From the NCBI RefSeq assembly GCF_027571385.1, contig NZ_CP085636.1, forward strand, positions 1,426,001 to 1,490,000: a stretch of 64,000 nucleotides of DNA, given 5' to 3'. Source of the stretch: Shewanella sp. MTB7. Its GTDB lineage: Bacteria; Pseudomonadota; Gammaproteobacteria; Enterobacterales; Shewanellaceae. The notes beneath the pieces were generated by a model that was given only the letters and a program-made list of their open reading frames with translations, made no database searches and was not told the DNA's origin. The position numbers and the translations under genes are program-made. This document shows, piece by piece, positions 9,349 to 53,540 of the stretch (its first letter is position 1; each line of letters opens with the position of its first letter).

Positions 9349-9903
9349 ATAAAGTTAAATTGTGTTCAATACACATTCGGACAAAACTCAGTTGCATACT
9401 TTCATCTTACTGAATTTACACAACTTGTTTGCAGCCCGCAATGGCAAACGTGAAGTGTAAAACAAAGAGATCGCAGTGAATGAGCTAATGGTTAAATCGA
9501 AGAGATAGCCTTCTTGTGAATTATCTAGTGTGGATGCGGCTCCGAACGTTGATGGCAGGGATGCCATCGTCGAGCCTACAGGGAGCGTACTTGCGGCGTT
9601 TCGTAGAAGCGTCTACACATAAGCACGCTGTAAGCGATAGATCACGATGAATCTCAGACTTTCAACAACCCACCTAATACGAGCTCAGCCAGAAGCTAAA
9701 CCAGAAAATGCAATAAGGCTTCATTTGAAGGCTAGCTAACTTTGGGTAAATAAGTAGGTCATTAACCCGACCAATTAAAGCTAAATCAGAGTTAAGTGCA
9801 CAGGAATGAAAATTTAAAAGTACTCACTCAAATACGAGCAAAAATAATGGTAGATATCAATGAACCTCAATCTAGCATTAACCGTTATTATGCACTAATA
9901 ACC
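9349..9903. repeat. Left composite repeat block, second part (no gene)
   Basis: A 555-base gap with no convincing gene. Bases 9400-9535 align with about 14300-14440 (shared stretches such as AAATCGAAGAGATAGC and GTGTAAAACAAAG / ATTGTAAAACAAAG). A dispersed structured repeat occupies 9494-9737. The segment ends with the inverted repeat GTTATTA-TGCAC-TAATAAC near 9883-9901, which recurs with loop CGCGC at about 14699-14717. The remaining bases (9740-9880) show nothing recognisable. Confidence 0.7.
9494..9737 (+). repeat. Dispersed structured repeat, copy 1
   Basis: Starts AAATCGAAGAGATA. It contains GATGCGGC, then a hairpin GATGGCA-ggga-TGCCATC, then CGTCGAGCCTACAGGGA, GTACTTGCGGCG, GAAGCGTCTACACATAAG and a tail that pairs with those of the other copies. 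Related copies are at 46425-46565 (inverted), 52971-53221 and 53249-53540. Confidence 0.7.
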
Positions 9904-10395
9904 CTACTCTATTAACCAGCGGACTAAAATGGATTGGCTGATAACGCCACTTTTACCGTGGAACTCGCCATCCCTGGTCACAAAATAACTTCGAGGTAGC
10001 TCGCCATACCAGTGGGGATCGATAAGGAAGCGATTTTGATCCCCTTGATCTTCTGCAAAATGAAAGTTTGGAAAATCATCGAGTTGAAACTCTTGTATGA
10101 TCTTAAACTGCTCTGCCAGTGCCTCTTCATTGGCATCGGTATTGACCAGCACCACGTTGAGCTGGAGATGTTTCTGTTTTAATCTCTGTTTTAGTTTTTG
10201 AATGCTTGCCAACTCCTTAAAACAGGGCGGGCAGTCGACAGACCACAACAACATTAGCCATCTTTTCCCCATGTTTTGCGCTTTAATCGTTGTAAGTTGT
10301 GTCTTATTGAATACCGATGAAGTCCCATGGGCATAGTGTGTGCTGAACACTGTGCAGATGAATAAAGTGAGCAGGCGTTGTTGTAGGCTATTCAT
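9904..10395 (-). CDS. TlpA/thioredoxin-like periplasmic protein
   Basis: A 163-residue exported protein with signal peptide MNSLQQRLLTLFICTVFSTH and a thioredoxin fold. The active-site motif CPPC is at 55-58 (WSVDCPPCFKEL), and the cis-Pro region is LPRSYFVT near 134. Such proteins reduce or shuffle disulfides, or reduce metal-binding cysteines, in the periplasm. ATG 10395 overlaps the stop of the upstream gene (TTATGA), so the two are translationally coupled. A slightly longer frame to 10434 would bury the signal peptide. The partner is probably the cysteine-containing Asp-box protein encoded just before it. Confidence 0.75.
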   Translation of the reverse strand: MNSLQQRLLTLFICTVFSTHYAHGTSSVFNKTQLTTIKAQNMGKRWLMLLWSVDCPPCFKELASIQKLKQRLKQKHLQLNVVLVNTDANEEALAEQFKIIQEFQLDDFPNFHFAEDQGDQNRFLIDPHWYGELPRSYFVTRDGEFHGKSGVISQSILVRWLIE

Positions 10396-11636
10396 AATGC
10401 TTGTATCCAGTGACTTTGCTTCAATCGATGCCAAGAGACAAAGCTCATCTTGTTATTGGTGATAATAAATGGCCGATCGGCGCCTGCAGTTGCTGTGGTT
10501 AATAACTTAGGTTGGCTAAATGATTGACCATTGTCATCGGAGTATTGGTGCCAGAGTTGATGCTCAATGCCATTGAATTGGGTCCAGACTATGTTGACCT
10601 TGTTACCAAGCGTGTCGATATGGGGATGTGCAGCTTGCGCCGATTGTTCACCAATGCTCACAGGCTTGGTTAAGGTTTTGCCCTGATCTAGGCTTGATGC
10701 ATAAAAAATTCCCTTACCTAAGTCTCCTTGGTTAAACCACACCATATGATATCGGTTATGTTTATCAATACTGAGCCCGCCACCTTGATGTGGGCAACCA
10801 TCAATTTGCCAGTGGTCATGGCTTATTTGGTAGGGAGTAAGCGGTGTGTTTTCATCTTGAGCAAGGGTCAGTAATGCAAACTCTCGAATATTATCGCCAT
10901 AAATATGTCGCCATAAAATCGCGAGTTCACCCTGACTACTAGTATCGAGGGCTATGCGGCAACACACGCAGGTACTGTTGGCTAATGCTTGATTAGTAAA
11001 AGTCGGTTGCTGCTTGCGGTAGTTTGCCTTGCCAAGGTATAGGGCTGAACCATTGGTTTGCTTTCCCTGTGATCTCGCTTGATGGGCTAAACGAGCGTCA
11101 AGCCACACTAGCGAGATTTCACCTTCATCTGAGACCTGCATTTCATTAAAGCTATGGCCGGTTTCAAGCTTGTCGTTATTGACGGTTATCGGCTTGGTAA
11201 AGCTGGTTCCATAATCCTTGGAATAGGCAAAACGTATATCAGCGGTGTATTTTTTGGCTTTTGGCATCGCCCACGACAGGTACACGCCCTGATACTGGTC
11301 AAAGGCTATCTTGGGACGGTTTTCATTACGTGCCGATATGCTCTCTTTAGCGATAGGCACTCGTCTAACGGTGGAAAAAGTGACGCCCTTATCCCGTGAT
11401 ATTTGAAAATAGAGGCTGTCGTTGTGCGACCATAAACGCCATAAATCACCATTGGGGGCAAATGATGCGGTCACTGTTTTGGCGCAGGTTATCTCTTCTT
11501 GCGTACATGTGGTGGTGCTGTCAGTTTGAGATTGCAACTTGTGGTGAGCATGGGCGGCTTGGGCGGCTTGGGCGCTGGTAAACGTTAACGGTATGCAGCT
11601 AAAAAATAAAAATATCAAACAATTATATTTAATCAT
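10392..11636 (-). CDS. Exported Asp-box (BNR) repeat protein with Cys and His clusters
   Basis: A 414-residue secreted protein (signal peptide to about residue 24) with at least four Asp-box repeats of the S-x-D-x-G-x-x-F type (SRDKGVTFS about 80, SKDYGTSFT about 139, SLDQGKTLT about 315, SDDNGQSFS about 366), predicting a sialidase-like beta-propeller. Features unusual for a sialidase are HAHH at 29-32, CTQEEITC at 44-51, CVCCR at 223-227 and CPH at 281. The catalytic Arg triad of true sialidases is not evident. Ten bases separate it from the TonB receptor upstream, and it overlaps the thioredoxin-like gene downstream. I infer a periplasmic metal- or cofactor-binding role rather than glycan cleavage. 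Confidence 0.65.
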   Translation of the reverse strand: MIKYNCLIFLFFSCIPLTFTSAQAAQAAHAHHKLQSQTDSTTTCTQEEITCAKTVTASFAPNGDLWRLWSHNDSLYFQISRDKGVTFSTVRRVPIAKESISARNENRPKIAFDQYQGVYLSWAMPKAKKYTADIRFAYSKDYGTSFTKPITVNNDKLETGHSFNEMQVSDEGEISLVWLDARLAHQARSQGKQTNGSALYLGKANYRKQQPTFTNQALANSTCVCCRIALDTSSQGELAILWRHIYGDNIREFALLTLAQDENTPLTPYQISHDHWQIDGCPHQGGGLSIDKHNRYHMVWFNQGDLGKGIFYASSLDQGKTLTKPVSIGEQSAQAAHPHIDTLGNKVNIVWTQFNGIEHQLWHQYSDDNGQSFSQPKLLTTATAGADRPFIITNNKMSFVSWHRLKQSHWIQAL

Positions 11637-11645
11637 GGACTTGGC

Positions 11646-13775
11646 CTACCATTGATAATTTACACCGACATAAGCGGTTCTAGGGGCTCCTGGGGAGTAG
11701 AATGTTTTGCCGTATCGATATGAGGCTTCCTGTGCATACTCCTCATTAGTGACATTTAACACTCTGGCATTGAAAGATAGCTGCTTAGAGAATTGATAAA
11801 GGGCTTTGATATTGGCGATGGTGTAGCCATTTTCAATACGATCCATTTCATTATCATCTTGGCTGTTCGCATCGTCTAACCAGTATTCCCCTATGGATTG
11901 TATCTCTAGCATGCTGGTTAAGCCTTGTGCAAATGTCGGCATATAGCGTAAACGCACGTTAGCGATATAGTCCGGTGCAGCCGCCATTTCATTACCTGAG
12001 TAAGCTTCATGTTGATCAAATTCATGGTGAGATCTGCTGTATGCCGTACTAAGGTTTAGCTGTTCATTGATCTTCCACGCAACAGATACTTCAACCCCTT
12101 GATGAATAACCCTAGCTGCATTGGTTAAATAGCGCTGGCCTGCATCGTTATAAGCACGCACAATACCATCATCTACATCCATATAATAAACGGCAGTATC
12201 AAGTGATATGGATTGCCAGTTGGCTTTAAATCCAAGTTCATAGGTATCAGATATCTCTGGATCGACCGCTTCGGCATTGCCATCATCTTTAATTGTTAAA
12301 TGGTACAAACTACTTGCGGTTGGTAAGCGAAAACTGTTGGCATAACGTAGATAAAGGCTAGTATCTTGAGTCAGGTGATAGTTTAGACTTGCTTTAGGGC
12401 TTATATGGCTAAAGTTATCTTTTCTGTCTTTAATACTGCGTTTTCCATGGCCTATGTCACCAAAAACACCTAAGTGGTTGTTAAAATCATATTGACCATA
12501 ATCATATCTGGCACCAAGAGTTAAATCGAGATTATCTGTTAATTCCCGCTTGTGCTGAATATAGGGAGAGAGACTGAGGTATTGAGTGGTGTCATCATAA
12601 AATACTTCCCCCTTAGTGAAGGTGTCGGCCCTAAAACCTGTGCTGGTATAGTCAAGGGGTTGATAGGAAAGTTGGTCGCCTTCGGTAAGCTCAATATCTA
12701 AGCCAACAGTGGTATCACTGTCACTTTCATGCTCAAAATTTGCTAATGCCAGTAAGCCCAAGGTGTGTACTTCAGACTCTACCTTAGGCATGTTTTTATT
12801 CCAGGTTGCGGTGTAATCGTTAGTACGGTAGCGATAATATGGGATGAGTGAAAAATAATTATTGTCGGTGGTTTTGTCCCACTGACTAGACAGTCGTAAG
12901 TATCTGGTTTTGCGTAGTGGATCATTTGCTAATACGTCAGCAGATAACCCCGAATTTGTTTTGTCATTGTCATATAAGGCTTGGGTTAAATTTCCTGCCA
13001 TCTCCTGTTCAAGGTCTGAAACCACTAAAGAGGTGACGAGGCGTTCATTATCTGCTAACTCGAATTCATGTCTGAAGGTTAATTCAGCCCGTTCAGATCC
13101 GGTATGGTCACGCCACCCTTCATTGGTTAGGTATGACGCTGACACTCGAATGCCTTGAGTATCGGAGAGTATATTGCTGTGACTAAATTGCGCCTTAGCA
13201 TAATCATCTTGCCCGAGTGTCAATCCCACATCCGTTTGAGGAGACTTCGCCACCTCTTTAGATAAAATATTAATCGTTGCAGCTACGGCTCCAGATCCAT
13301 ATAAGGCAGTACCAGCGCCCTTTAAGACCTCCATTCGGGCAATGTTAGAGTTAAAACTGGACCACCAAAGGGCATTATGGTTAAAAAAGGCCGGAGATTG
13401 CAGGGGGATATTATCCTGTAAATAGAGATAGTAACCACTGGTGTTCATGGGCATTCTGATTGCTGCCTTATGGCCTTGGCCGCCAGAAAGTTGGTCAATT
13501 AACACCCCTGAAATGCTGTTAAGTGATTCGGCGATATGTTGACCACTATCAATGGCTAGCTCTTCTGTGCTGACCCCCTGTAGTGACATGGCAAGATCAG
13601 TATCTAAAGATTGCTGACGTGTTGCTGTGACAGTAATACGTTCAAGATTATTGTTGGTGTTGGTTAATGCATTCAGGGTAGGCGTTTCTTCACGGTAGTC
13701 CTCGCTACCTAAAACAGTGAAAGATGCAATCAACCCTGTAATAAGTGCGAATGCGGATATTCTTTGTTTACTCAT
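11646..13775 (-). CDS. TonB-dependent outer-membrane receptor (metal-type)
   Basis: A 709-residue receptor with a signal peptide (about 1-23), a TonB-box-like RITVTATRQ near 46-54, a plug domain (VLKGAGTALYGSGAVAATINIL) and a C-terminal barrel ending in aromatic YQW. The size and plug resemble siderophore/copper-type receptors. It is the first gene of a three-gene operon with the Asp-box protein and the thioredoxin-like protein. The ribosome site AGAGGT precedes ATG 13775. The substrate is unknown; the neighbours with His/Cys clusters point to a metal or metal chelate. No clear Fur-type box was found in the 640 bases upstream. Confidence 0.85.
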   Translation of the reverse strand: MSKQRISAFALITGLIASFTVLGSEDYREETPTLNALTNTNNNLERITVTATRQQSLDTDLAMSLQGVSTEELAIDSGQHIAESLNSISGVLIDQLSGGQGHKAAIRMPMNTSGYYLYLQDNIPLQSPAFFNHNALWWSSFNSNIARMEVLKGAGTALYGSGAVAATINILSKEVAKSPQTDVGLTLGQDDYAKAQFSHSNILSDTQGIRVSASYLTNEGWRDHTGSERAELTFRHEFELADNERLVTSLVVSDLEQEMAGNLTQALYDNDKTNSGLSADVLANDPLRKTRYLRLSSQWDKTTDNNYFSLIPYYRYRTNDYTATWNKNMPKVESEVHTLGLLALANFEHESDSDTTVGLDIELTEGDQLSYQPLDYTSTGFRADTFTKGEVFYDDTTQYLSLSPYIQHKRELTDNLDLTLGARYDYGQYDFNNHLGVFGDIGHGKRSIKDRKDNFSHISPKASLNYHLTQDTSLYLRYANSFRLPTASSLYHLTIKDDGNAEAVDPEISDTYELGFKANWQSISLDTAVYYMDVDDGIVRAYNDAGQRYLTNAARVIHQGVEVSVAWKINEQLNLSTAYSRSHHEFDQHEAYSGNEMAAAPDYIANVRLRYMPTFAQGLTSMLEIQSIGEYWLDDANSQDDNEMDRIENGYTIANIKALYQFSKQLSFNARVLNVTNEEYAQEASYRYGKTFYSPGAPRTAYVGVNYQW

Positions 13776-13925
13776 ATTACCTCTTAGTAGGGTTATGTCG
13801 TTTTGGTGATACTAAGTAAGGCATTTTGTATGCCACAATCTAACTTGTTGATTACTTATTGTTATAACCATCTTTAAATAAATTAATTGTCATTAAGACA
13901 CTTATTTATCAGTGTTAAAATAACA

Positions 13926-13942
13926 GTGATTGTCTTAATCAC
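13926..13942. promoter_or_regulatory. Inverted repeat upstream of the metal-type TonB receptor
   Basis: GTGATT-gtctt-AATCAC lies about 150 bases before the receptor start. It is symmetrical like an operator, but the 9-base spacing between TGA and TCA half-sites does not fit CRP. A second perfect hairpin (CTGCGACA-aag-TGTCGCAG) is at 14062-14080. Either could be a regulator site or part of a terminator for a lost gene. Confidence 0.3.
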
Positions 13943-14129
13943 ATGACCAAAGCAAGGGTCTAAATGACCGGTTACTTGATAAATATGTGCTGGGTCATAA
14001 CCAGAGATGCATTTTTAGTCTTGATCTTGTCACCATCCTAAAATGCTTTGTCGAATTCGTCCTGCGACAAAGTGTCGCAGATGTTGAATTGTGGTTGCTG
14101 AGTTGTTTTATTTAAAGGGTGGACTTTGC

Positions 14130-14717
14130 CCTGCTAGAACGGCACTTTGTGCCTTCGAGAACGTTCGCAGGCTCACTGCTAGCTACGGCACCTTGTACCT
14201 TCAAGCTGTTGCTCTTCTCCGTGACCTTCCGTGTTCTCTGTGGTGAAAAGCTTTTAGGTTAATTCGCTACGACCCCTTTATGATGCAAAGTCGTTCACTT
14301 TCATCTTATTGAATTTAAACAACTTGCTTACACCCCAGAATAGTAAACCGTGAATTGTAAAACAAAGGGTAGTAGCGAATTAGTTAATGATTAAATCGAA
14401 GAGATAGCTTTTTTGTTAATTACCGAGCGTAGATGCGGCCGTGGAGGGATTCGCAACGCTTATCCATCATTTGTAGTTTCGCGTGCCAAAGTGACACAAG
14501 GGTTACTTATTGATGCACTTGGTAAACTATTGGCTGCTAGTGATTGCGTAGCATTCCCAATCGTCATTGTAGATGCCAAAGATGGTGGAAAACATTTCTA
14601 TGAACGCTATGGATTCCAAGCTTTTCAAGATGCGGAAAACAAACTGTTTATCACTATTTCTGATGTACGAGCAAGTTTAGGCTAGTTAACTCTAGCTCGT
14701 TATTACGCGCTAATAAC
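14130..14717. repeat. Right composite repeat block
   Basis: Repeats, in the same order and orientation, the motifs of the left block. These are the 33-base unit (14150-14182), a REP-like CTCCGTG...GTGGTGAA segment (14216-14250), TTAATTCGCTACGACCCC, the AAATCGAAGAGATAGC region and the terminal inverted repeat GTTATTA-CGCGC-TAATAAC. The two blocks flank the TonB receptor operon at 9904-13775. The structured dispersed repeat is truncated here and followed directly by a GNAT gene fragment. Confidence 0.7.
14413..14685 (+). pseudogene. GNAT acetyltransferase remnant (toxin-antitoxin type), N-terminus missing
   Basis: The frame 14413-14685 encodes only the C-terminal half of a GNAT domain: LLIDALGKLLAAS, then IVIVDAKDGGKHFYERYGFQ and the tail NKLFITISDVRASLG, typical of GNAT toxins of the TacT/DUF1778 pair class often found in integron cassettes. 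The N-terminal half and most of the acetyl-CoA pyrophosphate loop are absent, and the frame before about 14470 belongs to the dispersed repeat. No antitoxin gene precedes it. It is therefore a non-functional remnant. Family assignment is from the C-terminal motif only. Confidence 0.6.
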
Positions 14718-15374
14718 CTGATTCTCTGGTTGGGTGATCATCAACTGCTGATACACCAGTCCCGCTTGGGTGCGATTATACACCTCTAGTTTGAGCAGTA
14801 TTGCCGAGACATGCTTCTTCACGGTAGTTTCTTTAATGTCCAAGTCATAGGCTATCTGCTTGTTGAGTTGTCCGCCTGCAATACGGGCAAGTACGGTATA
14901 TTGTTGTGGGGTGAGTTGTGCCAGTTGTGCAGCTAAACGTTGATGCTCAGCGGCGCTCTGTTGATCTGTGTTGATTGAGGTGTGTTCTGGCAGCCAAATC
15001 TCACCGTCGAGTACTTGTTCGATCGCTGCGCCAATCTGGGTCAAGTTGGCCGATTTGGGGATAAAAGCGCTGGCACCAAAGTTGATGGCTTTGCGCATGA
15101 TGTCACTCTGGTCGTCCGATGACACCATGATCACCACGAGATCTGGGAAGTGATTTTGTAGGAGTGTCAGGCCTGTAAAACCATCGTTACCGGGCATATG
15201 TAGATCGAGAAAGACGATTTCAAGTGAGGGGGTTTGCTCGACTATGGCGAGGAGTTCTTGAAAATTTTCAGCTTCTAGTATGTCGGCCTTATCGAAGCTC
15301 TCTACTACGGCCTGCTTGAGTGCAGCGCGAAACAGTGGGTGGTCGTCTGCAATAGCCACTTTAGCCTGTGACAT
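14703..15374 (-). CDS. LuxR-type response regulator, CrbR-like
   Basis: A 223-residue regulator with an N-terminal receiver (acidic pair in IADDHPLFR, phospho-acceptor Asp57 in FLDLHMPG, conserved Lys in FIPKSA) and a C-terminal LuxR/NarL helix-turn-helix (LTPQQYTVLARIAGGQLNKQ, then ETTVKKHVSAILLKL). ATG 15374 has AAAGGAG six bases upstream and is preferred to an in-frame TTG at 15380. The receiver sequence resembles CrbR, partner of symporter-fused kinases such as the one at 4403. It lies next to the TonB receptor and PHB-depolymerase-like genes, which are the probable targets. Its last codons overlap the inverted repeat that ends the right composite repeat block. Confidence 0.85.
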   Translation of the reverse strand: MSQAKVAIADDHPLFRAALKQAVVESFDKADILEAENFQELLAIVEQTPSLEIVFLDLHMPGNDGFTGLTLLQNHFPDLVVIMVSSDDQSDIMRKAINFGASAFIPKSANLTQIGAAIEQVLDGEIWLPEHTSINTDQQSAAEHQRLAAQLAQLTPQQYTVLARIAGGQLNKQIAYDLDIKETTVKKHVSAILLKLEVYNRTQAGLVYQQLMITQPENQVISA

Positions 15375-15520
15375 AATCAACTCCTTTAGGTTCTTCTCTG
15401 ATTGAACGGATTGCTCTGATATATAAGGACACTAACACATTAACATTAAACGTAAGCACCGAACTGGGCAGTCAGTTCGGTGTTGATTGTGGTGGTTATA
15501 AATAAAGAGTTCTTATCATG

Positions 15521-17797
15521 TTAGAAACTATAACCAACAGTTAATGAGACAGTTTGCGGATCGCCATAATAGCCAATTAGGGTATTATCACCGCCGAGTC
15601 CAGGTAGATAGCCGCCGTCATCGGTTGGGGTCACAAAGGCGTAAGTTCCGACCAGATACTCTTCATCGGTGACATTCTTCCAATGTAGACCAGCAGTCCA
15701 GCTGCCTTCATCGCTATACCAGTTCAGGCCGAAGTTAAGTAGGCCATAACCATCCTGAGTGAGCAGATTGTCGGTCACGGTCAGATCATAGTCGCCGCGG
15801 TAGTAGTAGTTACCGTTGAAGACAAAATCACCGATGCTGGTGGCAAAGTCATAATTAAAGCCGACATTGGCAGTGGTGTCTGGTGTGTTGGCTATGGTGT
15901 AGATGTCGCTGAGATCGATCTGGTTACCATCTTCATCATAGGATATGACTTCATCGAATGAGGAGTCGATGAGCCCTAAGGTGCCGAACAGATTGAGAGA
16001 TTCGGTAGCGGCATATTGGATCTCAAGCTCGAGACCCGTGGCGGTTGAGGTGCCGATATTGCCCAGACGTTGATTTAGGTCGGCGGCATCTTCTCCTGGT
16101 AGTACTGTGACGAACTGCCTGTCTTGATGATCCAGATAAAATGCGGTGGCGTTGAGGCGAAGATTACCGTTCCACTCACTCTTAAAGCCTATCTCGTAGG
16201 AGTTTACCACTTCAGGGTCTACCGCAGGCTCTGCCCCTGTGGCTCTTGGATTAAAGGTACCGGATTTAAAGCCCTGAGAGTAGCTGGCGAACATCATCAT
16301 GGTATCGCTGTGTTGATACTCGATGCCGATTCTAGGGGTAAAGCGTGACCAAGTTTCACTGTCATCGAGTACCAAAGGGATCTTTTCTTCGATAAGCGCT
16401 TCATCACGTTCGAAACCTGGGTACCAGCCACTTTCCGGGTAGATACTGTCGAAGATCACGCCGTTATAGACGGTGGCATCTTTGGTCTCTCGGGTATAAC
16501 GGGCACCTAATGTAAGTGACCACTGTTCACTTAAACTGTATGACCCTTGGGCATAGGCGGCGTAGCTTTCGCTGTTATTACAGCCGCGCACTTCTCGAGT
16601 GAGACCACCGTAATCTTTGAAGGCTTCCTCAAGAATGGCATCGAAGTGACCACAGGAGTCGCCCTTGAAGTAATAGAGGCCCGAGACAATATTGAGATCT
16701 TCGGTGTCGTAGTTAACCTGAAACTCTTGGGAAAACTGCTCATCATCATAGATGGCGGGCACATCGAAAATGCGCAGTGAAGTATTATCGAAATCAATAT
16801 TAGTGGGTGAGTAACTCTCACGTGATGCTGTCACTGACTTGAAGGTCCACTCCTCATTGATAAAGTACTCAAGGGTAAAGCTTAGGCCTTCGGTTTCCAC
16901 CTTGTTCCAAGTTGGCATGCTGGTGTAGGAGTCATAGACACTGTCGGGAACGGGAGCTTCGGTCAACTTGCTTGGAAGTAAACGGTAGCCGCCCTTGGCG
17001 TTTGACTCATCTTCAGTTCTGTCATAGTTAAGTCGCATAAACAGATCGTCGGTTGGGGTGTATTCTAAGGTCAGACGACCAGCCATCACATCCTTGTTGT
17101 AGTTTTCTGAATCTTGGCCCGACAAGGCTGAGGTGACAAAGTCGCCATAACCGTCACGGTTAAGGCTCGCAAGGGCAAAGCCAAAGTAGAGCTTGTCTTC
17201 GACTAGGGGATATTGACCAGCAATCTTATAGTCTTGCTGTTTGTAGCTGCCTAAGGTGGCATTGAGATCTAGTTGAGCGTCGCCTGACATCTTCTTGGTC
17301 ACATACTTAATGGCGCCACCAATGGTGTTTTTACCATATAGGGTACCTTGTGGGCCGCGCAGTACTTCGACGCGCTCAACATCGAGAATATCCAGTACAG
17401 CCCCTTGTGGGCGAGCCACATAGACATCATCGATATAGATACCAACGCCTGGCTCATAGCCCCATAAGGGATCCTCCTGACCCACGCCACGGATAAAAGC
17501 CGTAAGGGTTGAGTTAGTGCCTCGGCTACGTTGCAGGGTCGTATTGGGTGAGAACTGCTGCACTTCAGTGACGACGCTGATGCCATTTTCAGCCAGTTGC
17601 TCGGCATTGATAGAGGTGACAGCAATCGGCACATTTTGTAGACTTTCAACGGTCTTACGCGCGGTAACTTCGATGCGCTCTAGGATAGGTTCCTGTTCAA
17701 CACTGGCCTCAGCATCGGCAGCGAGTACAACTTGGCTTGTTAGTGCTGTTGAGATGGCTAATGCGAGGCAGCTTAGCTTGATAGTATTCTGTTCCAT
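15521..17797 (-). CDS. TonB-dependent receptor (large, organic-substrate type)
   Basis: A 758-residue outer-membrane receptor. Signal peptide MEQNTIKLSCLALAISTALT..., TonB-box-like ERIEVTARK, and a plug with FIRGVGQEDP, VGIYIDDVYVARPQGA and VERVEVLRGPQGTLYGKNTI, followed by a barrel ending LTVGYSF. This plug type is common in receptors of alteromonads and sphingomonads for bulky organic compounds as well as iron complexes. ATG 17797 is preferred (AGGGAA upstream, signal peptide follows at once) over a longer frame to 17878. It sits between the CrbR-like regulator and a secreted PHB-depolymerase-family esterase, which suggests uptake of hydrolysis products such as ester oligomers. This is inference from neighbours. 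Confidence 0.85.
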   Translation of the reverse strand: MEQNTIKLSCLALAISTALTSQVVLAADAEASVEQEPILERIEVTARKTVESLQNVPIAVTSINAEQLAENGISVVTEVQQFSPNTTLQRSRGTNSTLTAFIRGVGQEDPLWGYEPGVGIYIDDVYVARPQGAVLDILDVERVEVLRGPQGTLYGKNTIGGAIKYVTKKMSGDAQLDLNATLGSYKQQDYKIAGQYPLVEDKLYFGFALASLNRDGYGDFVTSALSGQDSENYNKDVMAGRLTLEYTPTDDLFMRLNYDRTEDESNAKGGYRLLPSKLTEAPVPDSVYDSYTSMPTWNKVETEGLSFTLEYFINEEWTFKSVTASRESYSPTNIDFDNTSLRIFDVPAIYDDEQFSQEFQVNYDTEDLNIVSGLYYFKGDSCGHFDAILEEAFKDYGGLTREVRGCNNSESYAAYAQGSYSLSEQWSLTLGARYTRETKDATVYNGVIFDSIYPESGWYPGFERDEALIEEKIPLVLDDSETWSRFTPRIGIEYQHSDTMMMFASYSQGFKSGTFNPRATGAEPAVDPEVVNSYEIGFKSEWNGNLRLNATAFYLDHQDRQFVTVLPGEDAADLNQRLGNIGTSTATGLELEIQYAATESLNLFGTLGLIDSSFDEVISYDEDGNQIDLSDIYTIANTPDTTANVGFNYDFATSIGDFVFNGNYYYRGDYDLTVTDNLLTQDGYGLLNFGLNWYSDEGSWTAGLHWKNVTDEEYLVGTYAFVTPTDDGGYLPGLGGDNTLIGYYGDPQTVSLTVGYSF

Positions 17798-17888
17798 AGA
17801 GGTTCCCTGTTTTGTACTTAAGTTTGTTAGGTACTTGTTATTGTTTTTCTTGGTATTGACTCTATAGCAATGATTCAATAATTTAATC

Positions 17889-17907
17889 GGTACTATAGTA
17901 GTATACG
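17889..17907. promoter_or_regulatory. Candidate operator upstream of the organic-type TonB receptor
   Basis: GGTACTATAGTAGTATACG contains a perfect TACTATAGTA palindrome about 92-110 bases before the receptor start. It partly resembles the sequence at 4223-4243. It may be a target of the adjacent LuxR-type regulator; evidence is two sites only. Confidence 0.25.
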
Positions 17908-18018
17908 TTTGTTAATAGTTTGTTTTAACTGGCAATTGGTCTTTGCCTCGGTATTGCTTTAGTCGATGATATGCTTATGTAACAGTGTTTATTCGGTCGT
18001 TATCACTGTGTGTTCGGA

Positions 18019-19470: not shown

Positions 19471-19475
19471 CATTT

Positions 19476-44324: not shown

Positions 44325-44391
44325 TGTGACACATAACACCTTCACACATTGATCTACCGCAAACTTTGCCTTAGATACCTCATAGGTGGTA
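44325..44391. promoter_or_regulatory. narQ-nrfA intergenic control sites (CRP-like, FNR-like, NarP-like)
   Basis: Three sites lie in order toward nrfA: a CRP-like half-match TGTGA-N6-ACACC (44325-44340), an FNR/EtrA-like TTGATctacCGCAA (44349-44362), and a NarP 7-2-7 heptamer pair TACCTCATAGGTGGTA (44376-44391). The NarP-type site is the most convincing; it is 85-100 bases before the nrfA start. The other two are partial matches. Confidence 0.55.
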
Positions 44392-44475
44392 TATGCATTA
44401 TTAAGTTAAAGGGATAACTTTGCCCTTGGAGATATTGCGGTTATTAAGATTACTATAAAGTAACACGGAGATGAG

Positions 44476-45876
44476 ATGGTGAGAATATTATCTAGAAAAT
44501 CCTTTGCACTAAGTGCATTGGTCGCAGCAAGCATGATGGCTTCAAGCGTAATGGCGAGCGATGAAACTGAGCCGCGTAATGAGCAATATAAAGAAAAATT
44601 TTCTAAGCAATACAACAGCTGGCATGATACTTCTAAAAGTGTTGAGATTATCGATGCGCTTGAGCAAGATCCTAACCTCGTTGTTTTGTGGGCAGGTTAT
44701 GGGTTTGCTAAAGATTATAACAAGGCACGTGGCCATATGTATGCGGTTACTGATCTGCGTAATACATTGCGTAGCGGTGCTCCAAAGCAAGACTCTGACG
44801 GACCTATGCCGATGGCATGTTGGTCTTGTAAGAGCCCAGACGTACCTCGTATGATCGAAGAGCAAGGTGAAGACGGTTATTTTTCTGGTAAGTGGTACAA
44901 AGGTGGTGCTGAAATAGTCAACACTATCGGTTGTAGCGATTGTCACGAGAAGGGTAAATCTAAGCTACGTATCTCTCGACCATTCGCAGAGCGTGGTATG
45001 GAAGCAATTGGTACCCCATTTGATAAAGCATCACGTAAAGACAAACAATCTATGGTGTGTGGTCAGTGTCATGTCGAGTACTACTTCGAGAAGGCAGGCG
45101 ATAAGAAAGGTTTTGTGAAGTTCCCATGGGATAAAGGCACTACAGTTGAAGATATGGAAGCATATTACGACGGCATTGAATTCTCAGATTGGACTCACAA
45201 ACTGTCTAAGACACCTATGTTGAAAGCGCAGCACCCAGGTTATGAAACTTGGCAGTTAGGTATGCACGGTAAGAACAACGTAAGTTGTACAGACTGTCAT
45301 ATGCCTAAGGTGAAGAATGCAGAAGGTCGTAAGTTTACCGATCATAAAGTAGGTAACCCCTTCGATCGTTTCGAAGAGACCTGTGGTTCTTGTCATGAGC
45401 AGAGCAAAGAGTTCATGGTTAACCTTGATAATGAGCGCAAAGCTAAGGTTAAAGAGATTCAGCTTAGAGCTGAAGTTCAGCTAGTTAAAGCTCACTTCGA
45501 AGCTGCTGCAGCGTGGGAAGCGGGTGCTACTGAAGCTGAAATGAAGCCGATCCTTACCGATATCCGTCACGGCCAATGGCGTTGGGATTATGCCATCGCC
45601 TCTCATGGTGTTGCATCACACGCGCCAGATGAAGCGCTACGTGTTCTAGCTACTGCGGTAGATAAAGCAGCGGATGCTCGTGTTAAGTTAGCTCAACTTC
45701 TTGCTAAGAAAGGCGTTAAGCAACCGATTTCTTACCCTGATATCTCTACTAAAGCTAAAGCACAAGCCGCTATGGGTATGGATATGAAGAAGATGAATGC
45801 TGACAAGGCTGAGTTCAAGAAAACTGAACTACCTAAGTGGGATGCTGAAGCTAAAAAGCGTGAAGCAACTTACTAA
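44476..45876 (+). CDS. nrfA: Ammonia-forming cytochrome c nitrite reductase
   Basis: A 466-residue periplasmic pentaheme enzyme that reduces nitrite to ammonium with six electrons. Signal peptide to about residue 28 ([17 protein letters not shown]). Hemes: the catalytic CWSCK at 115-119, then CSDCH 153-157, CGQCH 195-199, CTDCH 271-275 and CGSCH 303-307. No nrfBCD genes follow, as in Shewanella, where electrons come from CymA. A strong terminator ends the unit at 45923. Confidence 0.98.
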
Positions 45877-45922
45877 GCCGATAAGCTTGATATAGTGTAA
45901 GTTAGTTATACTTGCATAGAAG

Positions 45923-45948
45923 AAGCCCTCCACACGGAGGGCTTTTTT
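45923..45948 (+). terminator. Rho-independent terminator of nrfA
   Basis: Stem AGCCCTCC / GGAGGGCT with a 5-base loop, then six T. Confidence 0.93.
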
Positions 45949-46049
45949 ATAGCCTTAGAATGAAGGTTGATTACATTTATTGGATGACATAATTATGGTT
46001 GATGCCGTTAAATATCTTCATTTGTGTTTGGTAGCTTTTAGAGTTGAAG

Positions 46050-46330
46050 ACAAAAAATTCCTCACCACGGCGAATATGGCGAAGTCATAAGCTTATGAAC
46101 GAGATACAGGGATTGTAGAGCTGGCTGTTAAACAGGGACGTTATTGTGCTGCGCTTCACGGAGAGCACGGAGAAGAGCTGGAGTTTTTTGTTGTAGGTTT
46201 TCTCCGTGGTCTCTGTGTCCTCCGTGGTGAATCGTTTTTATTTGGATTGTTTAGCTAAAAGACAAAAGCTTGTTCTCACCACGGAGCGCTTCGCTTCACG
46301 GAGTACACGGAGGTAAAGATGGAGGTAAAT
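46050..46330. repeat. Cluster of REP-like CTCCGTG hairpin motifs
   Basis: Several direct and inverted copies of a CTCCGTG / CACGGAG motif: near 46063 (CACCACGGCG), 46156 (CTTCACGGAGAGCACGGAG), 46200 (TTCTCCGTGGTCTCTG, then TCCTCCGTGGTGAA) and 46277 (CACCACGGAGCGCTTCGC, then CACGGAGTACACGGAGG). Opposed copies can pair as hairpins. The same motif occurs at about 8137, 8270 and 14216. The 937-base gap after nrfA has no gene apart from these repeats and the structured repeat that follows. Confidence 0.75.
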
Positions 46331-46424
46331 CTACGTTGAGCAGGGTTACATTTTTTGATTTAACTTTTGGCTGAGCCGGTATTGGGTAGTGTGTTTATAA
46401 TTTTCTGCTTAATTGTTATCTATC

Positions 46425-46565
46425 GCCTAGCCGGCGAGGCATGTGCAGATACTTCTGTGACACGCTGTGAATACTTCCATGTAAGCTCGACGACAGCGTC
46501 CTTGCTGTCAACGGCCACAGCAGTACCTACACCCGTTCATCTATCTCTTCGATTTGGCTTTACTT
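46425..46565 (-). repeat. Dispersed structured repeat, inverted copy
   Basis: On the minus strand it reads AAATCGAAGAGATAG, then GACAGC-aaggac-GCTGTC, CGTCGAGC, GAAGTATTCACAG and CACAGAAGTATCTGCACA, matching the copies at 9494, 52971 and 53249. A short plus-strand frame across it is a by-product of the repeat. Confidence 0.65.
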
Positions 46566-46813
46566 GGTAGAGTTTCGTAACTCATTTCTGCCCCAAACCT
46601 TGTTGGCGGTAGAGATTTAGCTATCTTATGTTACGCAGATATTGCCTTATATTATCTCATCTATTACGCTCTAAATGTTAATTAGCTACGACCCCTTTGT
46701 TTCAAAGCTAAACTCGCACCCATGCGAACTTCACGCAATTTGAAACTCTATACTTCGGCCACTTCCAACGGGGGAGTCTTGTAACCTGCAGCGGCATTTG
46801 GCTTATCGTCATT

Positions 46814-47870
46814 TTAGGGTGATGGATGAATTGCTTGGCTAGATGCTTTGCCTTTGCACCATTTCCCACTTTGATGCTTCTTCTTAAATTCACACATTGC
46901 ATCCCAACGACCACTAATCCCACTGTATTGACGGCGGAACTCTTGGGTTGAGGTTAACCAAGCATCAGATGAAATACCAAGCTCACAAAGTAGTTTCGGA
47001 CGTATTGAATCAATAAAGCCTTTCTTATCATGCCTAATTGCTCTGCCTGTCCAGTCAATCAGTTGTAGGTAATCAGAAAAGTGAAATGGAATACCTAATT
47101 GGGTTGTTTGGTGAATTGAACCATCAAATTCAGCAAGGGGTTTTAATGGCATTACAGTGATGGATTCTGCTTTATCATCTGCTTTTCTTAACACTTTTTC
47201 TTGGGTATTCCCTGTTGTATTTAACTCGGTAATACGCTCTTGAATCGAAGTGAAATCAGAAGTTTGTAGCGAGTCGGCAATGCCCGCTCTGATAGGGTTT
47301 AAATCCACGTACATCATACATGCAAGGACAGCTTGTTCATCGAGCAGAGCTTGTGACTTGAAACGTTCCTCCCAGAAAGCACCTTTACACTCATCTTCAC
47401 GATTAGCTTTTCGTGCAACCTCCTCATTGAGACAGCGCATAAACCAACTAATACTAGATAAACGCTCCTGCCATTCGGCAATAAGTCCATCCAGCAGTAT
47501 CTGCTCCCCTTCAATAAGTCCCTCACCTTTCATGTATTTAGTGGCGACTTCATTACCGTGAAACAACTGCTGCCAGCGACTAATCACGTCTCGATGACTT
47601 AAGACATTAGCTTCATTCAAGTCAATCTTGAGCACTAAATGATAGTGATTGCTCCCTCTCTGTCACCAAGAGTGCATAAGCACATATATCAATACAAAAT
47701 ATGGTAGAAAGCGCTTTGATTTTATCGACAATCCAACCACGTCTATGCTCGAAACTCTTTCCCGTCAGTTTATCTTCACCGCAGAGATAAGCCCTTCTCA
47801 CACAACGATTAATTACATGATAAAACGGAGTTGTTTCTGCATCAATTAAGATCCGGCGAGCTGAAGTCAT
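46814..47870 (-). pseudogene. Second REP-associated tyrosine transposase, disrupted at the catalytic motif
   Basis: The N-terminal part (ATG 47870: MTSARRILIDAETTPFYHVI, then RAYLCGEDKLTGKSFEHRRG) and the C-terminal part (SWFMRCLNEEVARKANREDE, WEERFKSQALLDEQAVLACM) are in different frames. Just before the HUH-type motif about 13 extra bases (GTGACAGAGAGGG, about 47650-47663 on the plus strand) separate CIDICAYALL from SNHYHLVLKID and shift the frame. Without them the protein would be continuous. The sequence is clearly diverged from the copy at 724, so these are separate RAYT lineages rather than a recent duplication. Confidence 0.85.
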
Positions 47871-48012
47871 AGAAGCTACCTCATATAAAGCTAAGTCAAG
47901 ATAACTTAAAGCCTAGTAAGAGATAGCTCAAAAGACAAAAGGTATGGCTGTCCTGTCTTTAGCGGTGGGGATTCGTCAGGCTACGACCCCTTTGTTCTTC
48001 TTTTATTCTTAA

Positions 48013-48459
48013 TCAACTAAATGTTCTAGCGCATGAGTATTTATTTCTGACATGAAGAACCCAAAGAAATTTCAAACCATAATAAGGCCACGTGATTATT
48101 AACAAAATATTGGTAATGAACTTAGGCAATCTACTCGCTAACCGCAACCTTAGTACATGCATACTAGATAATGTATGTCCTTGTCTCTTTGAAAGCATAT
48201 AACATTTTAAAGATTCATTATCATGCTCTATAAATTGACCACTTTCATACATATAACCCAACAAAAAGCTTGCGGCAGGATAATCTCGCTCCACTAATTC
48301 AACAAGTAGGTAATATACTAAATCAAACTTATTTTTCTCTCGGCAATATAAAGCAAAGCTGTATAATTCATCATGATTTTCAGTGTTATCAAACAAATAA
48401 GATTCTATACAGTTATTATCCTCATATTGCTCCATTATTTTTTTATAATCTAAATGCAT
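48013..48459 (-). CDS. Sel1-like repeat protein downstream of RHS gene (candidate immunity protein)
   Basis: A 148-residue protein with Sel1-type helices ([40 protein letters not shown]) and a hydrophobic segment near the C-terminus ([20 protein letters not shown]). Its start ATG 48459 overlaps the last ten bases of the RHS gene, so the two are translationally coupled. Position, size and AT-rich composition fit the immunity gene of an RHS toxin. The family match is by pattern; the immunity role is inferred from position. No other gene lies in the 140 bases up to the RAYT pseudogene. Confidence 0.55.
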
Positions 48460-51400
48460 TGTTGTCCAGTCCCTGCAGTATCATACCCTAATTCATTAAC
48501 AATCATACATGCACCGACATCACCAGATAAGCAATTTTGATACATCACTGAAATAAAAACCAACGAAAGTGGTGAATTTTTAAATGCTTTACCAAATATT
48601 TTCTGCAACTTTTTATAATGAGCAGAGTTTTTGGGATCATATGGCTGTGTATTTTTGGTAGAATTATGTTTATTGTCAGGACTATTTGGTCCATTAGCAT
48701 CTGAAGAGTCTATATTATGACCAATATCACCATTTAGCATACCAACAGCACCTAAGAACGCATCTAACCAAGCTTTTTTCTTAGCCAACCCTAACTGGTC
48801 AACATAACTCAAAGGATTCCCACCCACATACGCATAGGTATTCAACCCACCCGCTAAACCAATCGGATCAGATTGCAAGTAGCGACCAGTTGCCGCATCG
48901 TAATCTCTAAACATATTGTAGTAAGAGCCTTTTTCTTCGTCCCAATATTGTCCCGGGAATCCGAGATTATAACCGCCTATTGAATTAGTCATCACCTCAC
49001 GGTCAAAGGCAAAGTTACGTGCTTGCCACACGGTACTGCGACTCTGATTAGTAATACGCTCAGCACGGCCTAAATGGTCATTATGTACATAATAACGTTG
49101 TCCAGCCTTAATGATGGCAACTGGCTGACCATGAAGATAGACATACTCTTTAATCAGGCTACCACTGCTGGTGTATTCTGCCAATAGCTGTCCGGATTCG
49201 TTATAGAGGTAGTGAACGTTGCCACCGCTACCTGATTTTTTCGCCCGCTCTCCTAAGCTGTTATATCGGTAATGGGTAACACTACTGCCTTTTGTGAACT
49301 TAGTTAATCTATTGCCACTGTTGTAGCTATAACTAGCTCCCGCTTTGGTGCCAGTATTACCATTGGTGGTATAGCCAATTGCACCGATACCATTAGTAAT
49401 TGATGTTAACTGGTTACTTAAGCTTGAGTAGTTATAGGTTTGTGTTGCTTGAGGATATAAACGATAGCTTTTACGATTACCGACTTTATCATAAGTAAAA
49501 TATTTACTGCCGCCGGTGGATGAGCGCTCTGAGGTTAAACGACTCGCGGGATCGTACGCTAACGTTTGGGTTAACCCTGATACTCGATTATTGGTCAGCT
49601 TGCTGATATTGTCTCGGCTATCGTATGCATAGCGTAAATCTTGGATCCCAGAGGTAAAGATTTGGGTTGGCTTAAACTTACCGTCATAAGCTATACTTCG
49701 CACTGCATTGTTGCCAAAAGTGAAACTTTTATTTGGACCAAAGGGAATATATTGAGCATTAGATATCACGTTAGCGTAACTGCTTGAACCCGAAGAGTAT
49801 GCCACGCCAGCCACTCTGCCTAACGCATCATAGCTATACTTAATCTTGTGTCCAGATGGATAGGTTATCACACTGACTTGATTCATATTATTATATGAGT
49901 AACGAGTATGATATGTTCTTGAGTCAAGCTGAGTTGATTTTAATGTGACATTACCTATTTTGTCATAAGCGTAAGTTGTTTGGCCTGTAATATCACTGAC
50001 ATAATGTAATCTTCCTTTGCCGTATGTACCTGTGTCATAGGTATAGATAGTTTGATCACTGCCAATCGAACTCGATTTTAAACGGCCTAAAGCATCATAA
50101 GTAAAAGTGCTAACCGTACCATCATTACTTTTTGACCATATTGGCTGTCCCAGTTGATTATAACTAAGCTCTGTTGTTCCAGTATCAGGGCTAACAATAC
50201 TGATAACATCACCAAAGCCATTGTACCTATACCGAGTCACTAAACCCCGTGCATCAGTAATACTAGTAACGCGGCTTTTATGATCGTAAGTATAATGAGT
50301 GTAACCACCATCTTGATGTTTAACTTTAGTCAGCTGATCAAGCGCATTAAAGGTACTGTTAACAGAATAACCCATAGGATCGGAGACTGAAGTGACATTA
50401 CTATTATTGTCATAGCCAAAGGTATACTTTTTCGAAAAAGAACCTTGAGTTTTCATCCTTCCTAGTTTGTCGTATGTGTAGCCTTGATCGAAATATATGT
50501 CCTGCACTAACTCGACATCGGGCTCACAATCATCGTCGCTATCCTCTTCATCTGGGTCACAATCGTCATCATACTCGTAAACTTCTACTGGCTCACTTCC
50601 AATATCCCGCCAAGTGATATCACTGTTTTTGTTGTAGCCGTAGCCTTGCTGATTATTATTCTTATCTCTAACGGTTACCAATCGATGTGCATCATCGTAA
50701 TCATAGCGATAATAGTTACCGTTAGGATAGGTAACCTGTCTTAGTTTGCCAATCGAATTATAGGAAGTTTTGTGTAGCTGTTGCCCTGTAGAGTTATACC
50801 GTTTTGTCGTTAATAACTGCCCCGTTGGACTATAGCTATAGTCCGTTTGTAAGCCATTGCTATCGAGCATTCGACGAGCATTACCCAGAGCATCATAATT
50901 CGAGTAGGTTACTCTATGGCCTATAGGATTCGTCATTTTAGTCAGATTACCAGCGCTATCGTATTCTAGTGTGATGATATCCGAGATATCAGTGCGAGGA
51001 CCGTCAATGGTCATCTTCTTTAAAATAGCGTTCGAATGATTTATGTAACTATATGTGGTTTTTCTCTGCTCACCGTAATTACCATGGCTACTTAAGTCCG
51101 TTTTAATAACCGATTTTAAACGCCCATTGGAGAGGTAATCATAATCAACTCTTAAATCTCTACTTGTCAGACGAGCGATTTTATTTTGACCTGCCAACCA
51201 GATATATTCTTGAGTAAACGCTAACGCTGTTCCTTTAGCAGTGATTTTGGACTTAAGCTGACCATTTTCAGCAAAGTCATACTCTGTTAAATTACCATTC
51301 CAATCGGTACTGGTCTTTTTTAAACCTGTTGCAGTATAGGTAATATTTTTAACTGCGTCGGGACAATCAATAGAGGCAACTCTATCTACAGAAGCTAACC

Positions 51401-52475
51401 TCTTGAGAAAAACAGGCTCCTCTGGGGTACCGACTTTAATTTTAGTGTAATTATATTTAGTCTTTTGCCCTAATGGATTTGTCACTGTAGTTGAATTCGT
51501 TGAATAACTAAAAGTACTCTTCTCGACACCACCGGTATGTTCAGATGATATTGCATCCCCACTGCTATCATAAACAAAAGAAGCATAATTTCTATAATTA
51601 ATATTGATGCGTGATAACTTGCCGCCAGTGTAATAATAGTCGGTAACGTGGCGAAGTGAACCTGGTTTAACGACCTTTGCTATTCGATTATTTACATATG
51701 TATATAAATATTGATTGCCAGCATTATCTTCGACCTTAGTGACATCACCATAGTACATTGTATAGTGCAACCAGCGACCCGATGAATGAGTCACTCTAAT
51801 GCCATTTGAGTAGCTATAGGTATGCGCAATCCCTGTTGGGTGGGTTCTTTTCAGTATTTTACCGCTAGTATCATATTCTTCGGTAATGCCGCCTTCGGTC
51901 TTTAAAATCCACTTGTTACCTGATTGAGCCAAGGTTTGAATCGAATCCTCTTTATAATCCGACCATGTCCCTTGTGCATCTTTAACAAACTTAATCTGTT
52001 TCCCATTTGGTCTATGGTTGAGAATATAGCCTTTAAAATCAAGCTTAAAGCGAAGGTTACTTGACCATTTAAACCCAAACCATGAGTTACCTCTACCCTT
52101 TGAGTTATATGTTCGCTCAATTTTAAGCGGGAATTCCCCCTTACCTTGAAAATCAACAACCTTCTCAATCTTTGCCCCTGTACGCACCATAATTGGATTA
52201 GCGCAAGTTAACCCTTCAGATAAACCAGTATCGAATCCTTCGATCTCATCTTCTGCTAGTAATTCCTCAAATGCTTCATCCATCAAATCTTCTAAATCAA
52301 GGTATTTAATATCGCTAGGAGGAGGACGCTGACCAACAGTTCCAATACACTCCATAACTTCACAGTCATCATCAGTATCCCAAATATCAGCTTTTACAGA
52401 GTGGCTTTGGCTTAATCCACCTAGCGCTAAAAATATTAAGAAGAGAAATGATTTATACTCAAGTAATTTGTCCAT
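48450..52475 (-). CDS. Secreted RHS/YD-repeat protein with variable C-terminal tail
   Basis: A 1341-residue protein. Signal peptide [20 protein letters not shown]; acidic N-terminal region; DUF6531-like start ([35 protein letters not shown]). About thirty YD repeats follow (such as [20 protein letters not shown]), forming the RHS shell. The conserved core end [20 protein letters not shown] is followed by [18 protein letters not shown], after which a 110-residue tail (48453-48782) shares no domain I know. An acidic stretch with paired Cys ([18 protein letters not shown], about 50500-50590) interrupts the repeats. ATG 52475 has AAGGAT upstream. The layout is that of polymorphic toxins; a Sec signal rather than a PAAR domain suggests surface or Sec-dependent delivery. 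Confidence 0.85.
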
Positions 52476-52970
52476 AACTTCATCCTTGTAGTTCATTGCG
52501 TAAATAGTTTACAAACATTCGAGTTAAATGCAACCAGACTAACTAGCAAAAGCCTCTTTACAGTGTTCAATACTTGGCAGCGCCTATAAATAGATAAACA
52601 AACGATGTAATATTGATATTAAAAAGATAGAACAATAACTTCTGATTAAGCGGAAAGGGGTTTTGATTAATAAAATGTAAGGCTGTTAATGGCTATATTA
52701 GTCTTAGAGTTGTATTAACAATTTGGATTTTTAATTTATATAACGAAATAATTCGGGTAGATGATGTAAGAATCGTAACAAATACTCTTAATGTAAATCG
52801 AAGAGATATTTATATAGGAGATAGGGCAAAGCAGAATGTCTGACCCAAGGACGATTCATCTAGAATGCCTAACCGAGACTCTGGTTAGCTTCTTTATTTC
52901 GTAAGTAAACTGAGAGTATATATCTTAGTGAATATAGTCCAAAACGAAGCGGTCGTAGCCAATGGCCCAA

Positions 52971-53221
52971 AAATCGAAGAGGTAAACAACCAAGTGTGAA
53001 TGCGGCTATGACCTTCGACAGCAAGGACGCTGTCGTAGAGGCTATAGGGATATACTTGCGCCGAGTCATAGAAGTATTCACACATAAGGCATGCTGCAAG
53101 CAATAAACACTAATTCAGCTATGGTATTCAACAAATAAACTAAATACCAAACCAGCCCAATGAACCGAACCCAAAAGATACTTCAAACTTGCTATCAGGC
53201 AAGTCAGCAAACTTTTGTTCA
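52971..53221 (+). repeat. Dispersed structured repeat, copy 2
   Basis: AAATCGAAGAGGTAAACAAC, GTGTGAATGCGGCT, hairpin CGACAGC-aagga-CGCTGTCG, GGCTATAGGGATATACTTG, GAAGTATTCACACATAAGGC, GCTGCAAGCAATAAAC, then the tail with CAGCCCAATGAACC and ACTTGCTATCAGGCAAGT. Confidence 0.75.
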
Positions 53222-53248
53222 AAAATGAGTTCGCTACTCGAAGAACCT

Positions 53249-53540
53249 AAATCGAAGAGATAAACAATCAGGTGTGAATGCGGCTGAGGGCGTTGGTGGC
53301 AGGGCCGTTCTATGACATCCATGTCACCACGGCATTTCCTATATCCATATAGGTCAGATGCCACCGTCGAGCGTATAGGGACATATTTATAGCGTCCCGC
53401 AGAAGTATTTACACATCGGCCTGCTGCAAGCAATAGACTGCAATGAAGCGATGGTTATCAAGTAATAACCAAACACCAACTCAGCCAAATGAACACATCA
53501 AAAAGAAATTTGAAGCATTGTTATCCGACAATGCGACTGA
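53249..53540 (+). repeat. Dispersed structured repeat, copy 3 with enlarged loop
   Basis: Same flanks as copy 2 (AAATCGAAGAGATAAACAAT, GTGTGAATGCGGCT). The central stem is GGTGGCA / TGCCACC with about 55 bases in its loop, then GTCGAGCGTATAGGGACATA, GAAGTATTTACACATCGGCC and GCTGCAAGCAATAGAC. Confidence 0.7.

Follow-up and report, generated by a model that had tools for sequence, protein, structure and literature searches.

A dispersed three-way-junction repeat at the ends of candidate gene cassettes in Shewanella

Several described systems resemble the element considered here, a dispersed, structured repeat in a 64,000-nucleotide stretch of Shewanella sp. MTB7 (RefSeq assembly GCF_027571385.1, contig NZ_CP085636.1, positions 1,426,001 to 1,490,000 of the forward strand; the whole stretch is “the window”). 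We propose that this repeat is probably the end module of small mobile gene cassettes. One parallel is the integron attC site, in which shape is conserved and sequence variable, and which is bound to single-gene cassettes; like the hairpins of IS200/IS605 elements and of repetitive extragenic palindromes (REPs), it is recognised as folded single-stranded DNA. The element also joins a conserved shape to a variable sequence, but attC keeps its foot and varies its head, whereas the element keeps its loops and junction, and its cassettes have two opposed ends at scattered sites. No integron integrase was noticed among the proteins scanned from the islands that copies bound, although no search was aimed at an integrase or at attC.

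REPs and bacterial interspersed mosaic elements (BIMEs) share with the element a chromosomal location, a high copy number and hairpins. According to the available text of PMC3733652, REPs are 20-40 bp long and GTAG repeats have been reported in some Shewanella species; many REPs start with GTAG (PMC2817692, available in part). The element, in contrast, comes in units of about 280 bp with a three-way junction, and its coupling to REP-associated tyrosine transposases (RAYTs) fails. Miniature inverted-repeat transposable elements (MITEs), ERIC and SonMITE_1 of Shewanella are likewise short, non-coding, intergenic and present in many copies with stable folds, and MITEs can flank and mobilise cargo, for example in Acinetobacter integrons (the available part of PMC10969869). 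For the element, however, no terminal inverted repeats or target duplications were found in the units compared, and covariation is not mentioned for MITEs in the text consulted.

Two RNA systems should also be considered. Sponge RNAs of the CsrB/RsmY type, which bind CsrA, have hairpins with ANGGA loops as the element does, but the element is dispersed in scores to over a hundred copies and is known here from DNA alone. Ysr224 (Rfam RF02770, Yersinia sRNA 224) is among the most abundant bacterial small RNA (sRNA) families (PMC9029176, from the part available); it has been described as an sRNA rather than as a dispersed element or a cassette end. No description of the element appears in the titles and abstracts of the open-licence papers searched.

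Fold, covariation and spread

In what follows, G000 is the window genome, other G numbers are other genomes, and L numbers are fetched loci. Alignment A1 holds 25 copies aligned by sequence, with the fold written by hand, and covariance model R1 was built on all 25 rows. Four full copies lie in the window, where a preliminary description had placed them, and the differing, perfectly paired central stem that it quoted for each can be read off as given. It had also remarked on an insertion in one loop; this is in copy 4, which has about 52 extra bases in its P2 loop (a match of 187 versus 135 bases). The copies and their parts are as follows.

9495-9640, + strand: copy 1, modelled part (129.0 bits with R1; row 1 of A1); central stem GATGGC/GCCATC at 9551-9556/9563-9568
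9528-9546 with 9600-9618, + strand: P1 of copy 1 (A1)
9547-9556/9563-9572, + strand: P2 hairpin of copy 1, loop AGGGAT at 9557-9562 (A1)
9574-9579/9587-9597, + strand: P3 of copy 1, followed by P4 (A1)
9641-9740, + strand: 3' tail of copy 1, end approximate, closing in the small hairpin P6 (AGGCTTCATTTGAAGGCT, about 9716-9733)
14391-14439, + strand: 5' piece only, from an additional copy (86% identical to positions 3-51 of copy 1, E 1.75e-10)
46420-46554, - strand: copy 2, left outward-facing end of an island (126.8 bits); P2 stem GACAGC/GCTGTC at 46509-46504/46497-46492
52796-52921, + strand: weak, degenerate copy (22.8 bits, E 0.0097)
52972-53106, + strand: copy 3, right outward-facing end of the island (145.9 bits); P2 at 53013-53022/53029-53038 with loop AAGGAC, central stem CGACAGC/GCTGTCG at 53016-53022/53029-53035
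53250-53436, + strand: copy 4, a tandem unit spaced 278 bp from copy 3 (128.5 bits); P2 stem GGTGGC/GCCACC at 53295-53300/53360-53365

In the tail of copy 1, repeat matches reach 9690, which is the end of the query; the remaining extent was taken from the sequence and from the units of other copies. Units are about 280 bp long and mosaic between copies, and tandem spacing is mostly 277-279 bp, with two cases at 273 and 263. Hairpin-rich inserts of about 50-110 bp occur in the P2, P3 or P4 region, at window 53301-53359 and in L029, L005, L014, L017 and L022.

The earlier account covered the central hairpin only. The full fold is a three-way junction in which an outer stem, P1, encloses hairpins P2 and P3, with the small hairpin P4 after it, and covariation is present in all four. 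Across A1, 95.3% of 850 cells pair, a percentage that leans towards the drawn fold since the structure was drawn on the same sequences as were scored, and 25 of the 34 pairs change on both sides. Two rows (L015c and L024) are mixtures of near-identical copies; restricting the count to the 23 exact rows gives 94.9% of 782 cells and, again, 25 of 34 pairs. P2 alone pairs in 99.6% of its A1 cells. The covariation score for A1 is 0.575, against 0.242 in shuffles (none of 500 reaches it) and at most 0.129 in slid registers; one of five measures, further pair types, does not rise above the shuffles (107 of 500 are as high).

Pairs that are not Watson-Crick are strongly polarised on the modelled strand, with 50 G-U and 4 A-C in A1 (44 and 4 on the exact rows). 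The ratio is 183:38 in A2, a set of 86 matches that was fitted to the model and so leans its way, whereas A1 was aligned by sequence. This excess of G-U over A-C argues that selection for folding acts on one strand rather than on the duplex. In each copy, one strand is selected to form the three-way junction and its small tail hairpins, and the genome-wide alignment thereby bears out the earlier argument from compensatory changes. Conservation is concentrated in the loops: the P2 loop holds GGA in 25 of 25 rows, the P3 loop holds GG in 25 of 25 with A next in 24, and P2 always closes with C-G; the remaining P2 and P3 stem columns mostly carry 0.4 to 1.5 bits.

Genomic context was read for 75 of the 86 model matches, in 508 kb of sequence, with the 11 weakest omitted. 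As in short non-coding repeats of the MITE type, 72 of these copies overlap no open reading frame (ORF) of at least 100 aa, and the other three overlap ORFs of 109-115 aa, so the copies are not pieces of one coding gene family.

The family is large. A BLAST search with copy 1 gave at least 38 matches in its own genome (best 40 of 59 candidates scored), and R1 matches at least 83 places in that 6.37 Mb genome at E≤0.1 and at least 73 at E≤1e-3, the latter a lower bound because the best 150 of 1455 candidates were scored. Within the genus, 125 of 129 genomes match R1, many with at least 26 matches. An order-wide sample has matches in 66 of 295 genomes and 18 of 99 genera, with up to 126 in one genome (G222), and only the P2-P3 head is held in common outside Shewanella. 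A pattern scan of named genomes found at least 120 stretches; among the matches listed, 80 titles are all Gammaproteobacteria except for one unassigned Pseudomonadota metagenome-assembled genome, and the genera include Xanthomonas, Stenotrophomonas, Marinobacter, Microbulbifer, Halomonas and Shewanella. As identified by such matches, the junction head occurs across the Gammaproteobacteria. In E. coli, 5 of 5,426 genomes have one copy; the two inspected share the same stretch, beside insertion sequence (IS) elements.

Outside the genus, the arms below the head behave in more than one way. G373, from a genus with 13 genomes, has a repeated core of 68 bp, with 11 further places matching 59-82 bp at 94-100%, and each of the 11 elements read there has its own outer stem of 21-40 bp. 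In G222 and G352 the members of a subfamily have their arms in common, so arms are not unique everywhere. Among 117 elements from the outgroup scan, the median arm length is 29 (range 3-40; 17 under 18), the arm pairs are 2570 Watson-Crick, 198 G-U, 49 A-C and 165 other, and the commonest P2 loops are CATGGATG (44) and CAGGGATG (18). When the 11 G373 arms were searched in their own genome, only matches of 15-17 nt were found outside their own elements, which makes an origin elsewhere in that genome unlikely. Inverted target duplication was considered as a possible source of the unique arms, but no close empty site could be aligned.

Ysr224 has the P2-P3 head in common with the element, but its stronger matches fall on the element's complementary strand, with another structure. 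The match scores are 72.9 bits for L204 (cut-off 70), 38.0 for L201, 31.3 for L195 and 28.1 for a Stenotrophomonas copy; the cut-off is reached only by the outgroup locus L204, on the complementary strand. A weak match in L205 (25.6 bits) is assigned to the + strand of that locus, and the element there is on the - strand. Rfam gave nothing in the window at cut-off, and in L018, L015 and L001 only matches far below it; Ysr224 itself matches nowhere in the window, nor in those three loci at a relaxed threshold. These results suggest that Rfam's Yersinia sRNA family is part of a dispersed element whose best-supported fold is on the other strand, in which case counts of that sRNA family may be counts of the element. 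A Ysr224-like head adjoins an alcohol dehydrogenase gene in a few wastewater E. coli, at NZ_CP058751.1 34770-34839 and NZ_CP022154.1 2514548-2514617.

Arrangement around cargo and signs of movement

The copies stand inverted and facing outward at the two edges of cargo, in most cases in gaps where the flanking genes converge. On their 3' side, 63 of the 75 copies have a convergent gene (47 of 59 when each downstream gene is counted once, p 5e-6), while the 5'-side gene is on the same strand in 37 and the opposite strand in 38. Seventeen sources have copies in both orientations, and in 16 of them every minus copy lies to the left of every plus copy, an order that points to outward-facing pairs around cargo, some with tandem units; the other 21 of the 38 sources have the element in one orientation only. 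The sole exception is the window, and it is one only because the separate copy at 9495 lies far from the island at 46-53 kb, which is itself outward-facing. Three of the four window copies are thus the two ends of one island, which the preliminary description had not recognised. Cargo elsewhere includes HipA_2 with DUF3037, NERD, KAP NTPase, DUF4062, DUF5677 and GNAT proteins, as well as a superinfection-immunity-like protein, IS110 and RAYT-like proteins. P6 lies directly behind the stop codon of the neighbouring gene in L113 (both sides) and on the left sides of L105 and L121.

Related species carry different cargo between such ends at one and the same site, or nothing. At the yaaA site, joined gene-end queries run on 14 genomes located both sides in 13 (the one-sided G039 was dropped), which with G000 gives 14 sites. 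Eight are filled (1.5-7.3 kb) and six are empty, with a gap of 74-189 bp. At all eight filled sites the cargo is bounded by an outward-facing element on either side, and at the six empty sites no element matches at E≤1; a 13-bit opposite-strand match inside the right element of L169 was disregarded in this count. The filled sites hold different ORFs in each species, judged by reading the proteins rather than by a search. At the site of L120, among the genomes fetched for it, elements stand on both sides in G000, G041 and G062 and on one side in G125, whereas G028, G082 and G016, with gaps of 1.7-2.1 kb, have none. At the L113 site of G041, beside an rlmG-like gene, L424 holds what look like a left A-type and a right B-type tail joined without junction or cargo; this is likely an excision scar.

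The same cargo with the same ends can also be found at unrelated sites. At E≤1e-20, relatives of the HipA_2 protein of one cassette are found in 9 of 126 genomes, and the HipA_2-DUF3037 cassettes of G000 and G041 have 2.5 kb in common at 92% between different flanking genes. The homology starts inside the left element and stops at P6 of the first right unit. One cassette thus sits at unrelated sites in two species, alike from element to element. The pair of genes occurs at further sites in G015 (92% over 1.7 kb) and G038 (71% over 1.6 kb). At G041's HipA site, G000 has 4.6 kb of other DNA with no element match, and therefore offers no clean empty site.

Readings as a group II intron, as an IS110 bridge RNA or as attC were also considered; an IS110-family transposase adjoins a few copies only. 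ORFs of 341 aa recur at L095 5454-6479, L104 5160, L106 8231, L112 5320 and L118 8046; L095 and L106 encode one and the same IS110-family transposase. The ORF in L095 and that in L104 each lie 103 bp from the element's 5' end, with a junction that is 99% identical, and the gene may target the element.

Readings of the element

That the repeats are the end modules of small mobile cassettes is, in our judgement, the probable explanation. Tentatively, and with rather more doubt than confidence, we take folded single-stranded DNA to be the form that matters. During cassette movement, a chromosomally encoded factor acting in trans would recognise the folded outward strand at each end, much as integron attC sites or IS200/IS605/REP hairpins are recognised. 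If it is the shape that is recognised, the stem sequence would be free to drift so long as shape and ANGGA loops are preserved. On the other strand, P6 probably acts as a substitute terminator for the adjoining gene; an insertion just after a stop codon would then be tolerable. A fuller picture is possible but must be considered doubtful: a new class of mobile gene cassette, chromosomal and genus-wide, whose two ends are read by shape as a folded single strand. Its head would belong to an element that occurs across the Gammaproteobacteria, has two CsrA-type loops and, in some genomes, acquires with each new copy a new arm of about 30 nt that is almost perfectly paired.

If cassettes do end in this way, the element is an address label for small cargo genes (defence-like, toxin-like and transport) in a genus in which metal respiration is studied, and the covariance model finds cassette ends. 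Were the loops to bind CsrA, a mobile element would be tied to a global RNA regulator; were the fold to act as DNA, it would be another case of recombination that reads shape over sequence.

A number of observations weigh against the idea of mobile cassettes. No enzyme was found, and no common recombinase was noticed among the island proteins read or scanned. A 96-nt Shewanella-type query has no match at E≤0.01 on 72,556 plasmid and 50,697 phage records, which is odd for a mobile cassette, in a record set that may omit records near the window genome; on the same records a 58-nt head query gives none at E≤0.001 and a 68-nt head query one match of 25 nt. The flanking genes of L093, L094 and L110 are not both convergent. 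Only one side of the HipA cassette carries a recognisable element in G015 and G038, and of the two elements at G041's cassette one is a poor copy (45 bits). The units compared end in small hairpins, and no shared termini or target duplications were found; exchange of cargo by ordinary recombination in shared ends is possible. Finally, action as DNA leaves it unexplained why both loops match the CsrA motif.

That match is the core of the best-surviving alternative, that the element acts as RNA. Outward transcripts from either cassette side would fold into the three-way junction, and the two ANGGA hexaloops would dock a single CsrA/RsmA dimer; read-through RNA would then be silenced, processed or turned into a CsrA sponge. 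The P2 loop with its closing pair is the CsrA-type motif CANGGANG in 24 of the 25 A1 rows, and the loops keep ANGGA almost without exception. CsrA/RsmE motifs are given as RUACARGGAUGU (E. coli) and (A/U)CANGGANG(U/A) in the available text of PMC6692469, and CANGGANG appears also in that of PMC6849547. Among the 86 A2 matches, CANGGANG occurs one or more times in 75 and [CT]ANGGA two or more times in 60. The distance between the two GGA sites is about 24 nt, loops of this kind are also seen in other Gammaproteobacteria, and the fold tolerates G-U pairs. Against this, the match to the motif was noticed after the fact, and the registered sRNA family, Ysr224, lies on the opposite strand. Gene orientation outside the genus bears on the point as well. 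After 43 of the 117 outgroup elements that overlap a predicted open-ended ORF of at least 100 aa were omitted, 60 elements had both flanking genes within 500 bp: 12 with both sense, 25 with both antisense, 14 convergent and 9 divergent. A second sample of 21 loci gave sense versus antisense as 6 versus 7. A folded strand without sense bias speaks against a role in the neighbours' mRNA, and we regard action as RNA as a serious but doubtful possibility.

It is unlikely that the sites are passive hot spots, at which MITE-like repeats insert behind gene ends in a fixed orientation and cassettes are DNA trapped between them and exchanged by homology. The facing of 63 of 75 copies towards a convergent gene end would by itself yield outward pairs in convergent gaps, the copies are mosaic, and L102 has a pair with about 170 bp between. 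However, all six empty yaaA sites are free of any element, and the HipA cassette of G000 and G041 sits with its elements at unrelated sites.

RAYTs make very improbable partners. If the structures were large REP or BIME units moved by these genomes' RAYTs, the three RAYT-like genes inside element-bounded islands, one of them in the window, would fit, and REPtrons typically have a RAYT gene between inverted repeats. But 14 of 15 fetched RAYT regions have no element match at E≤5, and the RAYT-like proteins score below the NCBIfam REP_Tyr_transpos cut-off (31.3 and 39.6 versus 80 bits). Of about 20 RAYT places here, three are within about 2 kb of an element, and a fourth has a partial match 2.1 kb away; there are 21 elements but no RAYT matches in G061, and seven RAYT matches but no element in G055. 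The last two results count against mobile cassettes too. With the association with elements not found and presence uncoupled across genomes, RAYTs were largely rejected. Long, N-extended RAYT-like transposases have 27 matches in G000, including window 724-1312 and 47270-47852, and are mostly missed by Pfam Y1_Tnp (one match in the genome).

Least probable of all is that palindrome-correcting DNA repair keeps the stems paired without selection, for the long, near-perfect arms unique to each copy in G373 do suggest stems made or corrected in one step, but the polarity of G-U over A-C in P1-P3 (50:4) and in the outgroup arms (198:49), together with the near-invariant loops, points to selection on a single strand.

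Contents of the window's island

The island lies between an nrfA-like (cytochrome c552) gene on its left and an isochorismatase gene, in the opposite orientation, on its right. Copy 2 comes first, then the cargo listed here, then copies 3 and 4.

46814-47852, - strand: broken REP-associated-type tyrosine transposase (RAYT-like), in pieces, from protein matches to the RAYT-like protein of L120
48013-48459, - strand: 148-aa ORF adjoining the RHS gene, no Pfam family
48450-52496, - strand: 1348-aa RHS-repeat protein (Pfam RHS_repeat 9.2e-47, DUF6531, RHS)

The pieces that match the L120 protein are G000:1473270-1473653 and 1473661-1473852, and a 273-aa ORF at 46814-47635 matches no Pfam family. 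The RHS gene and the 148-aa ORF (48013-52496) have a layout typical of a polymorphic toxin and its partner, and we would guess that the 148-aa ORF is a putative partner of the RHS protein. Beside copy 2, at 46157-46312, CACGGAG/CTCCGTG inverted repeats are clustered, and similar words occur beside L003 and L021.

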